Of a stretch of 64,000 bases of DNA, positions 24,148 to 35,302 are shown piece after piece. Position numbers and translations under genes: made by a program. Position 1 is the first letter of the stretch; the number at the start of each line of letters is the position of its first letter. The notes beneath the pieces were generated by a model that searched no databases, had not been told where the DNA came from, and worked only from the letters and a program-made list of their open reading frames with translations. The stretch spans positions 1 through 64,000 of the forward strand of contig JAOZFH010000047.1 in assembly GCA_027491415.1 (NCBI GenBank), given 5' to 3'. The stretch is from Thermoproteota archaeon. GTDB taxonomy: Archaea; Korarchaeota; Korarchaeia; Korarchaeales; Korarchaeaceae.

Positions 24148-24274
24148 GGGGCGAGCGGCCATAGTGGCCGGGGACACACCCGGACTCGTTCCGAACCCGG
24201 AAGTTAAGCCCGGCCACGTCCTGCGGAGTACTGGGCTCCGTAAGGGCCCGGGAAACGCAGGAGCTGCTAACCCC
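24148..24274 (+). rRNA. rrf: 5S ribosomal RNA
   Basis: The universally conserved loop B/helix III core CCGAACCCGGAAGTTAAGCC is at 24191-24210, preceded by the archaeal GCGGCCATAGTGGCCGGGG start. Helix I forms between 24154-24159 and 24263-24268 (AGCGGC with GCTGCT) and extends, after two mismatches, by four G-C pairs (24148-24151 with 24271-24274). Ends are therefore approximate by a few bases. It stands alone, without 16S or 23S genes nearby, as is common outside the Euryarchaeota. Confidence 0.95.
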
Positions 24275-31537: not shown

Positions 31538-32617
31538 CTACTCGGAAACCGGGAAGCGGAGAAAGGCTACAATCCCCCCGAGGGAGTCAAGCATCTGCCC
31601 AGGCTCTGAGTCCGAGTCCAATATGCGGAAGTTGGCCCTGGTTCGCCTGCACATCTCCAACATACGCATCGCCTCGTCCCTTGTGGATGGGTCGAACAGC
31701 AACTTGCTGGACAGCAGCAGGATCTCCACGGCGCCAAGTGACAGGGCTTTAGAGACCTGCTTGAGTCCGTAGGTGACGAGTCCGGATCCCTTGGACAGCT
31801 CGCGGAGGAAGTCCTGGAGGAGACCCGCGTCCCTCGAGATGGATAGCTCTCTGGCCACTCTGTCAATCTCTCCCCTGCGAAGAACCTCGTAGATTCCGCT
31901 GAGCGTTGCGGACGACGAGTCGACCACCCTGATCAGGTTCGCCAGCTCGGGAGACCTCTCCTCCATGAACCTCGCAAGCTCCTCCTTGAAGAAGCCCGGT
32001 CCCGTCAGCACTATGGCCTCCGGGGAGTACCTCTCTGCGAGTCTCTCAAGTAGCTCAGCAAGCTCCCGCTGAAACTCCCTATTCAGCGCGCTCTGAATCC
32101 TCTTTGAGCGGAGGTTCGCTGTTCTGGACGCTCTCAGCGACGCCTCGGGTGCGACCCGAAAGTCTGAGATCACGGCGACAACCGCGTCCCTGTCGTCCAA
32201 GGCGACGGCCAGGACCTTGGGCGATAGGGTCGACCTCTCTGCCCTGTCCAGGAATTCCAAGAGCGTGTCGCTCCAGGACTCCTTCTGGATCGTGAGCTGC
32301 GACCCCGGAGAGATGTCCAGAGAGTGGTGCTTCCCCTGAATCCCCAACCACTCCGGGGCCCTCCTGACCACGCCGAGGACTCGAAGCGAGGCCCCCCTGG
32401 GGCCGACCTCAACCTTCTCCACCTCGATCGTCAGCGTAACCGGAACGCGCTCTCCGCTGTCCGCCCTCTGCTGACCCTCAGGCTTATACCTCCGCGTCGT
32501 CCGGGCAGTTATCAGGTCGCCGGGTTTGATTATGAGGGACAGCCAGTAGAGGTCCTCCTGGCCGTCAACCTTCACAGTCACTGTGCCCCTTCTTTCGTCC
32601 CTCTTCAGTACCCTCAT
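31538..32617 (-). CDS. pelA: Pelota (Dom34) ribosome-rescue factor
   Basis: Binds stalled ribosomes with an EF-1A-type GTPase and ABCE1 to release them (no-go decay). Three domains: N-terminal Sm-like (MRVLKRDERRGTV, VDGQEDLYWLSLIIKPGD), central eRF1-domain-2-like (TGPGFFKEELARF) and C-terminal eRF1-domain-3-like (YGLKQVSKALSLGAVEILLLS). As expected, no GGQ motif. 359 residues from ATG 32617 with GTGAT five bases before; the GTG at 32626 overlaps that signal. Directly downstream of dnaG. Confidence 0.95.
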   Translation of the reverse strand: MRVLKRDERRGTVTVKVDGQEDLYWLSLIIKPGDLITARTTRRYKPEGQQRADSGERVPVTLTIEVEKVEVGPRGASLRVLGVVRRAPEWLGIQGKHHSLDISPGSQLTIQKESWSDTLLEFLDRAERSTLSPKVLAVALDDRDAVVAVISDFRVAPEASLRASRTANLRSKRIQSALNREFQRELAELLERLAERYSPEAIVLTGPGFFKEELARFMEERSPELANLIRVVDSSSATLSGIYEVLRRGEIDRVARELSISRDAGLLQDFLRELSKGSGLVTYGLKQVSKALSLGAVEILLLSSKLLFDPSTRDEAMRMLEMCRRTRANFRILDSDSEPGQMLDSLGGIVAFLRFPVSE

Positions 32618-32635
32618 GCGGATCACGCGTTGGAT

Positions 32636-33928
32636 CTACTCCAGCGTGTAGACCTTCAACCCAACGGGTATCCTGCTCAGCTCGTAGGTCCTCCTACCGA
32701 CTATCACCCTAATCCCAGAGAGGTGCGCCTTGTCCACAATTCGCTGAGTAACGTTCCCATCGTACACGAGGTACTTCGCTCCGTCAACCGAGTCCAGCTG
32801 CTCGTGCAGGTCGCTCACCCTTACCTCCTTCACCTTTTTCATGTCCTCGGACAGGAGGATCGCCTTTCCGCTGGAGATTGCCTCTTTAACCCAGTCTCTG
32901 AACTCCTTGGGGATCCGCTTCTCCCACAGCTCCTCAACCGGAGGAGGTCCGGCGTGCTTCGTCACGGCAGATCCTGCCTGGGGTTGTTGGATCTCCGCGG
33001 GAGCCTGAGGCGGGGGTGGTCTACTCACGGGCTTTGGGATCCCCATCCTCTCCCGCTCTTCGGACGCTGAAACTGCAGACTCAAGCGCCTTCCTGATCTC
33101 CTTGGCCGTGAGGTCTTGCACGCCCTTGCCAGGGGGGGCCCTAGCAACGTAGTCCACATCCGTCTGCTCCAAGAGGGCCCTGAGAACCATCTCCCCTCCG
33201 CGATCCCCGTCAACGAAGGCTATGGCATCCTTCTGGGCTATCAGCTTCACCACCGTGTCGGGGACCCTCTCGACGGCCCCGCCAACCGATATGACGTTGG
33301 TCCAGCCGTACCTCAGCATGTTTACGACATCCGCCCGGCCCTCCACGACTATCAGCTCCTCGGACTCGTCCACCCCAGGGCCGGCTGGGAGCCTTTCTGG
33401 GCCGTAAAAGACCACCTCTTCGCGGGAGGCCTCTCTCAGGATCTTGTCAAGCAGGTCCTTGGACGACTCCGCTGCCTGGCTCCTCCACTCCTTGAGTATC
33501 TCCACGGCCCTCTTAGCAATAAATCTCCTCTTCTCCTCACGTTCATCTGTAATTTTTCTCAATTTGACCTTTGCAGTGTAAGGTCCAACACGATCAACGC
33601 TCTCCATGGCGGCGGCGATAATGGCCGTCCGGGCCTTGTCTAGGCTGCAGCCGACCTGAATGACGCCCCTCGTCTTCGCGCCCTCGTTCTTGAGGTGAAC
33701 CTTTATCCTGCCTATCTTTCCGGTCCTCTGGAGCTCTCTCAGCTCTAGCTCGGGCCCTATGAGACCCTCAAGCTGACCGAACAGCGCCCCTATAACGTCG
33801 CTGTCGTCCACATGACCGTTAACGACTATGTCGAGGTGGATCAGGTACTTGGGGTGGTGCTCTGCATCCCTGTTCCTGTTCCCAAGAGGCCTCGACTCGA
33901 ACCCAGGGGAATTCCTCAAGTCAAACAT
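32636..33928 (-). CDS. dnaG: Archaeal DnaG-type primase (Toprim), exosome-associated
   Basis: Archaeal DnaG has a Toprim catalytic core; it is reported both to make primers and to be a subunit of the RNA exosome. Seen: N-terminal HLDIVVNGHVDDSDVIGALFGQ with ELQRTGKIGRI, Toprim motifs VVEGRADVVNMLRYG and AFVDGDRGGEMVL, a Pro-rich linker (RPPPPQAPAEIQQP) and a C-terminal domain. No zinc-binding domain, as usual in archaea. About 430 residues. Start ATG 33928 or TTG 33919 (GGTGA eight bases before). The 238-base upstream gap is the second-longest untranslated stretch in the window (see 34059). Confidence 0.94.
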   Translation of the reverse strand: MFDLRNSPGFESRPLGNRNRDAEHHPKYLIHLDIVVNGHVDDSDVIGALFGQLEGLIGPELELRELQRTGKIGRIKVHLKNEGAKTRGVIQVGCSLDKARTAIIAAAMESVDRVGPYTAKVKLRKITDEREEKRRFIAKRAVEILKEWRSQAAESSKDLLDKILREASREEVVFYGPERLPAGPGVDESEELIVVEGRADVVNMLRYGWTNVISVGGAVERVPDTVVKLIAQKDAIAFVDGDRGGEMVLRALLEQTDVDYVARAPPGKGVQDLTAKEIRKALESAVSASEERERMGIPKPVSRPPPPQAPAEIQQPQAGSAVTKHAGPPPVEELWEKRIPKEFRDWVKEAISSGKAILLSEDMKKVKEVRVSDLHEQLDSVDGAKYLVYDGNVTQRIVDKAHLSGIRVIVGRRTYELSRIPVGLKVYTLE

Positions 33929-34058
33929 CACCTCTCCTCAAGCGGGTATTGAGCCTGGAACGGCGCCCCAGACTCCTCTAACCACCCAATCAATTGCGAT
34001 TGATCGTCAAACTCGACCGATAACACTCCCTTCAACACCCGGTCTGAGAGGGGGTTGA

Positions 34059-34140
34059 GCGCCTGCCAACTAATCCCGCGGGCTCACCGGTCGGCCCACG
34101 CCGTCCTCCCTCGCCCGGGGTCATGCAGTGGCAGGCGCCA
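34059..34140 (-). ncRNA. Candidate structured RNA or long dnaG leader
   Basis: A perfect 10-base inverted repeat (GCGCCTGCCA at 34059-34068, TGGCAGGCGC at 34129-34138) encloses about 60 bases with a further stem (CGTGGGC with GCCCGCG). A TATA-like element at 34163-34170 predicts minus-strand transcription starting at about 34140, the outer edge of this hairpin. Two more hairpins follow toward dnaG (ATCAAT-TGCG-ATTGAT at 33989-34004, and an imperfect one at about 34030-34060). Not a tRNA: no GGTTCAA arm. It could be a free small RNA or a 210-base 5' leader. Identity unknown. Confidence 0.45.
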
Positions 34141-34162
34141 TGTCTATTCTCTCAGGGACCCC

Positions 34163-34170
34163 AAATTTAA
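34163..34170 (-). promoter_or_regulatory. TATA-like box at the idsA stop codon
   Basis: TTAAATTT on the minus strand, overlapping the end of the prenyl synthase gene. Expected start of transcription is the base of the large hairpin at 34059-34140. Confidence 0.5.
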
Positions 34171-35237
34171 CGGTTCCTGAACACGAGCGCGTCGGCAAGC
34201 TCTGAGAGGAGCTGTAAGAACTCTGGGTCTGCAGCTCCCTCAAGGGATTTCAAGGCAGCCTTAGACTCCTCCAAGAGTTCTATTGCCTTGGAGCGTGCGT
34301 AGTCGAGCGAGCCAGTCTCTCTCACCACGTTCCTGACGAAGTCTACATCTTCGTCGCCTGCAGACGGGTTGCCCAAGATGCTCAGCATCCTGCCCCTCTC
34401 CTGAGGAGAGCAGCGCTCTAAAGCCCGTATTATTAGGATGGTACGCTTTCCCTCCTTCACATCCGAGTCCGCTGGCTTGCCCGTAACCCTTGGGTCTCCG
34501 AACAGCCCCAGAATGTCGTCCACTATCTGGAACGCCACCCCCACCTTGCGCCCGTAATCGTCGAGGTGTCTGAGGAGCGAGTCCGGCGCGCCAGCTAGAA
34601 TGGCTCCCATCTTAAGGGAGGCCGCGAAGAGGGCGCCTGTCTTGAGAGAGAGCATCCTGAGCACCGCCTGCTCATCTGGCGCCTCCTCGCTGCAGCTCAG
34701 GTAGAGGTCCAGCAGCTGACCCTCAATCAGCCTCCTGTAGGCCTCGACATACTCGACGGCCGCGGCGTTGGCCCTATCAAATGGAAATCCGGACTTGAGG
34801 AGGGTCTCAATCCCCAGCCCAAGCAGGCTGTCGCCTCCGAGGATACCAATCGAGATCCCAATGTTGGATGGGGCTCTCTCCACCCCCAGCGATGCGAACC
34901 AGTCGCGCCCAAGGACGTGAAAGGCCGGCCCACCCCTCCTCGTCAGGCTCTCATCCATGATGTCGTCGTGGATCAGAGAAGACGCGTGGAGGAGCTCGAC
35001 GGATATGGCCGCCCGGTAGATGCCCTCGTGGTCCCCTCCGAACCCCCTGTACGCCGCCACCACCGACAGGGGCCTTAACCTCTTTCCTCCCCTCAAGAGG
35101 TACTCTGTGAGCTTTTCGTAGTAGTCTGAGGTCTCACGGGACGGAGATTCAGCGCTAATCTCCTGCATGAACCTTGAAATCTCCTCGTCAATGCGGCCCT
35201 TGTTCTCCGAGATGAAAGCCTCGAGTATTCCGGTCAT
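34167..35237 (-). CDS. idsA: Short-chain isoprenyl diphosphate synthase (GGPP/FPP synthase)
   Basis: Condenses IPP with allylic diphosphates to make geranylgeranyl or farnesyl diphosphate for archaeal lipids. First Asp-rich motif LIHDDIMDESLTRRG, second FQIVDDILGLFGD with following KPADSDVKEGKRT; conserved GGKRLRP near the N-terminus. 356 residues from ATG 35237, preceded by GGTGAG; GTG 35246 is an alternative. Product length cannot be fixed from sequence alone, though a Ser-Ser rather than bulky residues before the first motif (LLHASSLIHDD) allows chains beyond C15. Completes the isoprenoid theme with the mevalonate cluster. Confidence 0.93.
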   Translation of the reverse strand: MTGILEAFISENKGRIDEEISRFMQEISAESPSRETSDYYEKLTEYLLRGGKRLRPLSVVAAYRGFGGDHEGIYRAAISVELLHASSLIHDDIMDESLTRRGGPAFHVLGRDWFASLGVERAPSNIGISIGILGGDSLLGLGIETLLKSGFPFDRANAAAVEYVEAYRRLIEGQLLDLYLSCSEEAPDEQAVLRMLSLKTGALFAASLKMGAILAGAPDSLLRHLDDYGRKVGVAFQIVDDILGLFGDPRVTGKPADSDVKEGKRTILIIRALERCSPQERGRMLSILGNPSAGDEDVDFVRNVVRETGSLDYARSKAIELLEESKAALKSLEGAADPEFLQLLSELADALVFRNR

Positions 35238-35302
35238 CTCACCCACACCGTCTCGCCAACGCCTATCGAAAACCAGTTTTTAAAACGCAACCGACGGGCT
35301 CG

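Follow-up and report, generated by a model that had tools for sequence, protein, structure and literature searches.

A probable H/ACA-type small RNA directly upstream of dnaG in the Korarchaeia

The dnaG locus and the structured element

The window, i.e., the whole 64,000-nucleotide stretch of korarchaeal DNA analyzed here, encodes on its minus strand a polyprenyl diphosphate synthase of the idsA type (positions 34167 to 35246; family matches all below the curated cut-offs), followed downstream by dnaG, encoding the archaeal DnaG, an exosome subunit (32636 to 33931; NF003108, 412.5 bits, over the cut-off), and then by pelota (pelA; 31538 to 32626; TIGR00111, 214.1 bits, over the cut-off). Between the prenyl synthase gene and dnaG lies an intergenic gap of 235 bases (33932 to 34166). 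An earlier, sequence-only reading had pointed to this gap as an unexplained structured stretch; the gap is real, but the span then given (33929 to 34166) takes in the first three bases of dnaG. The structured element sits on the minus strand, i.e., the dnaG strand, as do all of the features described below. It is preceded by a TATA-like box (TTAAATTT; 34163 to 34170), which shares bases with the stop codon of the prenyl synthase gene, has similar counterparts upstream of the element in relatives, and stands about 25 nt before the base of the stem, much as had been proposed.

The core hairpin together with its box position spans 83 nt (34056 to 34138) and is supported by a covariance-model match, the z-score of the fold, and covariation. 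Its lower stem pairs a 5' strand (GCGCCUGCCA; 34129 to 34138) with a 3' strand (UGGCAGGCGC; 34059 to 34068), and 6 of the 10 pairs of this helix show covariation; this is the perfect 10-bp stem recognized earlier, which closes 80 nt, or 82 nt when the next G.U pair is counted. The internal loop above it comprises a 5' side (CUGCAUGA; 34121 to 34128), conserved at 98% in its inner 4 positions and at 73% in its outer part, and a 3' side (AUUAGU; 34069 to 34074), conserved at 92% over alignment columns 72 to 78, and both sides are candidate guide strands. The two strands of the upper stem (34113 to 34120 on the 5' side and 34075 to 34083 on the 3' side), placed by alignment, fold, and covariation, lead into a pair of kink-turn-like strands: GAGGGA followed by GG (34105 to 34112), with a conserved GA before the GG and opposite UGA, and CC followed by GGUGA (34084 to 34090), whose UGA is invariant in 22 of the 22 aligned sequences. 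The structure is topped by a capped hairpin, CGGC-GUGG-GCCG (34092 to 34103), in a region that is 92% conserved.

The spacer that separates the RNA from dnaG in the window (33932 to 34055) is 124 nt long and thus exceeds that of other genera. As for the two further hairpins noted in the gap by the sequence-only reading, the part that corresponds to the upper stem and the capped hairpin belongs to the same RNA, but the hairpins predicted in the spacer find no support from relatives, in which the spacers are shorter and unrelated. A short reading frame in the same spacer was rejected as a conserved gene, the sister species (G001) carrying a 1-base deletion in the frame.

Fold stability, covariation, and distribution

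Our search detected dnaG in 59 of 61 genomes. When the gap was compared by BLASTN with 30 retained dnaG loci, a stretch of roughly 80 bases ahead of dnaG matched in 22 loci (L001 to L022), all from the family of the window, and these were aligned as the basis of a covariance model. A further locus, L024 (genome G025), carries the element and was excluded from the alignment as too divergent, and the element was not found in L023 or in L025 to L030. The copy in the window, itself part of the alignment, matches the whole model with 93.8 bits (E = 4.3e-26). When run on 121 genomes, the model gave 29 matches at E <= 1, of which 25 had E <= 7.5e-9. Of the 26 genomes nearest to the window (G000 to G025; family, order, and class relatives within the Korarchaeia), only one is missing from these 25. 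The matches include two families beyond that of the window, and in every carrier (25 of 25) the element is present as a single copy directly upstream of dnaG. The sole noncarrier (G010) is 72% complete and likewise lacks a dnaG match. None of the three genomes from the same phylum outside the class (G026 to G028) carries the element, and matches in G031, G042, G051, and G079 (E = 0.015 to 0.87, all outside the class) were not counted; some of these resemble H/ACA hairpins distinct from the present one, with different loops. A search of named genomes with a degenerate pattern recovered 18 stretches, and 17 of them score at least 67.7 bits against the model. Candidatus Methanodesulfokora washburnensis, of class Korarchaeia, is among the pattern-matched carriers; a gammaproteobacterial match (L145) contains the capped hairpin only (19.4 bits) and was taken as chance. 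Separately, the dnaG loci of two related genomes from another phylum (L030, 3975 to 4071, and L029, 3965 to 4061, both on the minus strand) contain a different H/ACA-like hairpin with an ACA box, some 1.3 kb upstream of dnaG and ahead of a dehydrogenase-like frame; G051 (L085) has a hairpin whose loop is similar.

The fold of an 85-nt core is considerably more stable than expected from its composition (z = -4.4; 0 of 200 shuffles equally good), and the corresponding values are -6.5, -3.8, and -4.9 in three further genera, -2.2 for the whole gap (2 of 200 shuffles equally good), and just -1.8 for the most distant member, L024 (9 of 200). We then assessed covariation over 22 pairs in the 22 aligned sequences, 21 of them distinct, against 500 shuffles. 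Two-sided changes are seen in 12 of the 22 pairs, amounting to 43 cells, with 15 of the 22 sequences coming from one genus and the covariation events being fewer than the cells. Overall, 98.7% of the alignment cells are paired (99.5 to 100% in the lower stem), a level matched by 0 of 500 shuffles, and a control in which partners were slid along the alignment gave at most 52.3% pairing. None of the 500 shuffles attained the number of covarying pairs, the number of cells, or the covariation score; for the number of pair types, 23 of 500 did. The compensatory changes that the sequence-only reading had said should be looked for in relatives are thus present, and they are distributed across five genera. 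G-U cells (10 of 21 at the pair formed by columns 41 and 56, and 6 at another pair) are compatible with the dnaG strand but not with the opposite one, which places the RNA on the dnaG strand.

Relationship to the H/ACA class and search for targets

We conclude that the element is very probably an H/ACA-type RNA. The single-hairpin H/ACA guides of Pyrococcus abyssi (RF00058, RF00060, RF00064, and RF00065) have in common a lower stem of about 9 bp, an internal loop, kink-turn strands in the upper stem, and an ANA box 14 to 16 nt from the upper stem (PMC4652768). For archaeal H/ACA RNAs, the same source gives a lower stem of 7 to 9 bp and a distance from box to upper stem of 14 to 16 nt (14 to 15 nt for Pyrococcus folds that are productive), and it places the kink-turn some 10 layers above the loop (PMC4652768). 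The korarchaeal element likewise forms a single hairpin with a lower stem, an internal loop, and an upper stem; its lower stem has 9 bp, or 10 with a conserved A-U pair, and its upper stem has 7 to 9 bp before the GA and UGA strands. At the level of sequence only, these strands are kink-turn-like (a conserved GA and then GG on one strand; CC, three bases, and GA on the facing one). The 5' strand has some four additional bases beside the upper stem, a departure from the textbook kink-turn.

In the ortholog set, an ACA box lies directly 3' of the lower stem and 15 to 16 nt from the upper stem in 24 of the 25 genomes, i.e., in the sister species G001 and the other 23 (21 of the 22 aligned sequences, plus G022, G024, and G025), and the flank beyond the box is just 41% conserved. 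The copy in the window reads UCA at this position (34056 to 34058), and the first box base (34058) is the sole difference in hairpin and box from G001; it may reflect decay, a tolerated variant, or a base error in the assembly. PMC4652768 records boxes of the form NCA and, for one canonical Pyrobaculum RNA, a CCA box.

The expected protein partners are encoded in the genome of the window, where Cbf5 (360 bits), L7Ae (162 bits), and Nop10 (33.5 bits) are all over the cut-off; a Gar1-like protein is below the cut-off in the genome of the window (G000; 23.6 bits) and in G001, and neither the Nop10 nor the Gar1 model has a match in G007. By analogy with the family, the kink-turn would be recognized by L7Ae and the stems and box by Cbf5-Nop10-Gar1, with a target uridine presented for pseudouridylation in the internal loop. 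A guide function is what the architecture leads us to infer, and the suggestion of a free small RNA of the guide type, one of those offered by the sequence-only reading, gains support from the H/ACA architecture, the covariation, the conserved ACA box, and the upstream TATA-like box. As an observation in its own right, the cbf5 genes of G000 (L161; G000:C43:72911-73876, minus strand) and G001 (L162; G001:C9:225462-226430, plus strand) each carry an insertion of 21 nt that keeps the frame, includes a TGA stop, and splits the codon of the catalytic Asp between its first and second letters, the known site of the crenarchaeal cbf5 pre-mRNA intron. The insertion is likely to be a very short spliced intron; G007 cbf5 lacks it, and Korarchaeum cryptofilum is listed without a cbf5 intron in PMC2738675.

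In Rfam (release 15), no model reaches its threshold for the element, and none matches at E up to 5 in ten relatives. The nearest similarity is to Pyrobac-1 (RF01722, from Pyrobaculum), which presumably belongs with the H/ACA-like RNAs: it aligns weakly over its full length to the upper part of the element in the window (16.0 bits, E = 3.4, far below its gathering score of 40), with similar GA and UGA strands, and ten related loci gave no match to it up to E = 5. The Pyrobaculum RNAs sR203 to sR210 have degenerate NCA boxes comparable to the UCA of the window, but they are described without a lower stem (PMC4652768), whereas the korarchaeal RNA has a full one. It differs from the Pyrococcus abyssi set in its linkage to dnaG, in the UCA box of the window, and in that neither an Rfam relation nor a conserved rRNA target was found for it. 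A literature search that combined korarchaea with H/ACA or pseudouridine, largely covering work outside subscription journals, returned no description of this RNA in the text accessible. With this element, korarchaea gain a clearly supported, class-wide H/ACA RNA that had gone undetected by Rfam release 15.

To look for targets, we aligned eight 23S and seven 16S rRNAs and scored uridine columns present in at least 75% of the sequences against the loops of each genome. No conserved target in 23S or 16S rRNA stood out: the best real mean was 7.64, compared with a median of 7.78 for shuffled guides, of which 36 of 60 scored at least as high, and when the divergent genus was left out the values were 8.97 and 8.84 (27 of 60). 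The 45 tRNAs of G007 offered no convincing site in a scan without a shuffle control, 5S rRNA gave low scores in a scan without a control, and in RNase P RNA and the dnaG region the real guides mostly did not outscore the shuffled ones, of which 9 to 82 of 100 and 32 of 60 did at least as well. As a limited check on the scan, three other H/ACA-like hairpins (from G037, G059, and G051) share one 23S site, which ranked 4th, 3rd, and 3rd by score; hence, the power of the scan is modest and real sites can be missed. Two 23S candidates were rejected. For the helix AACUAUAAC, visual comparison pairs UAGUU of the 3' loop strand with AACUA, yet the 5' strand is mismatched, the divergent genus breaks the pairing, and the site is absent from those listed by the joint scans; at GAACUAAGUACCGUGAGG, changes in the guide and in the rRNA do not track each other. 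A side observation concerns the 23S rRNA gene of G007 (G007:C1:1328189-1331736), which at about 3548 bases, versus about 3050 in relatives, suggests an insertion or an intron.

Linkage to dnaG and alternative readings

By a simple score applied without a control to 23 loci, 15 of which belong to one genus, TATA-like boxes lie 23 to 29 nt upstream of the start of the element in 22 loci and 41 nt upstream in L024. The gene upstream of the element is variable: an idsA-type gene adjoins the RNA on the same strand in L001 to L004, L021, and L022, lies about 740 nt away on the opposite strand in L016, and is absent within the flank in 15 loci of genus g3 (13 with full 1.5-kb flanks). The dnaG side is constant. 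In g3 loci with a placeable frame, candidate dnaG starts occur mostly 15 to 27 nt past the box (with outliers at 0 and 37) and most stand just behind a GGAGG-like stretch; in other genera they occur 12 to 54 nt past the box where they could be placed, and in the window the distance is 124 nt. The short distance from box to start in most genera leaves little room for a separate dnaG promoter and points to cotranscription; hence, the RNA and the dnaG mRNA probably share one promoter. As we picture it, the RNA would have its own promoter and form the first part of a dnaG-pelota transcript, and RNA and dnaG mRNA would form one primary transcript that is cut or trimmed after the box. A fixed link between an H/ACA RNA and the gene for an exosome subunit is unusual, and if the layout does mean cotranscription and processing, a direct connection between a guide-type RNA and the RNA decay machine becomes testable.

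The cotranscription implied by this layout leaves room for a regulatory leader of dnaG, which the sequence-only reading had also raised. On this account, which we regard as rather unlikely, the element would act mainly in cis: an H/ACA-like kink-turn hairpin to which L7Ae binds, alone or together with Cbf5, would adjust the translation or processing of the dnaG mRNA instead of serving as a free guide. The constant position directly upstream of dnaG even next to different upstream genes, the candidate starts close behind the box and the GGAGG-like stretch in most g3 loci, and the lack of a target found for the loops all speak for it, as does the repression of mRNAs by Sulfolobus L7Ae through leader kink-turns (PMC5539422). 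There, the l7ae and nop5 mRNAs offer the parallel of an L7Ae-bound kink-turn in an mRNA for RNA metabolism, located in the leader for l7ae. Yet the Sulfolobus kink-turns are described as simple ones, without a lower stem and ACA box (PMC5539422), and the korarchaeal RNA has both; a bare kink-turn would need neither the lower stem nor an ACA box at Cbf5 distance, and these are kept in 24 of 25 genomes, and in the genus of the window 124 nt separate the box from dnaG. A further and still less probable proposal is that the H/ACA RNA is the leader of the dnaG mRNA throughout the Korarchaeia, with L7Ae/Cbf5 assembly and 3' trimming by the DnaG-bearing exosome controlling the amount of dnaG mRNA released for translation. 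The supply of exosome would then be tied to that of H/ACA particles, and the internal loop need not modify rRNA.

The capped hairpin is more conserved (92%) than the outer part of the 5' loop (73%), which is unexpected for a pure guide. This, with an internal loop that is an orphan, would be in keeping with a nonmodifying H/ACA RNA that uses its conserved loops in RNA processing, in the manner of eukaryotic snR30/U17; no RNA of this kind is known to us from archaea, and we consider the reading very unlikely. That the gap holds an RNase P RNA, SRP RNA, tRNA, or 5S gene, an idea favored only by position and compact fold, is next to impossible: RF00373 has no match in the window and exceeds its cut-off elsewhere in 6 of the 6 genomes tested, including that of the window (on another contig), which disposes of the RNase P suggestion made earlier, and, in line with the exclusions already made from sequence, ARAGORN finds no tRNA in the window, the only gathering-level Rfam match there is 5S at 24151 to 24272, and SRP has none. 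Equally negligible is a spurious hairpin in a GC-rich spacer, which the modest z-score of the whole gap might suggest, against compensatory changes in five genera and model matches in two further families.

In several species of genus g3, a block of 31 bases around the TATA box is identical (e.g., G013:C11:53119-53149 and G016:C4:377672-377702) and occurs nowhere else in the searched genomes. We rejected it as a general promoter: allowing up to 3 mismatches, it appears once each in 4 of 10 genomes, always right before the H/ACA-type RNA. By eye, the block holds a dyad, CGnCAnnTGnCG, between TATA and start, which is operator-like.
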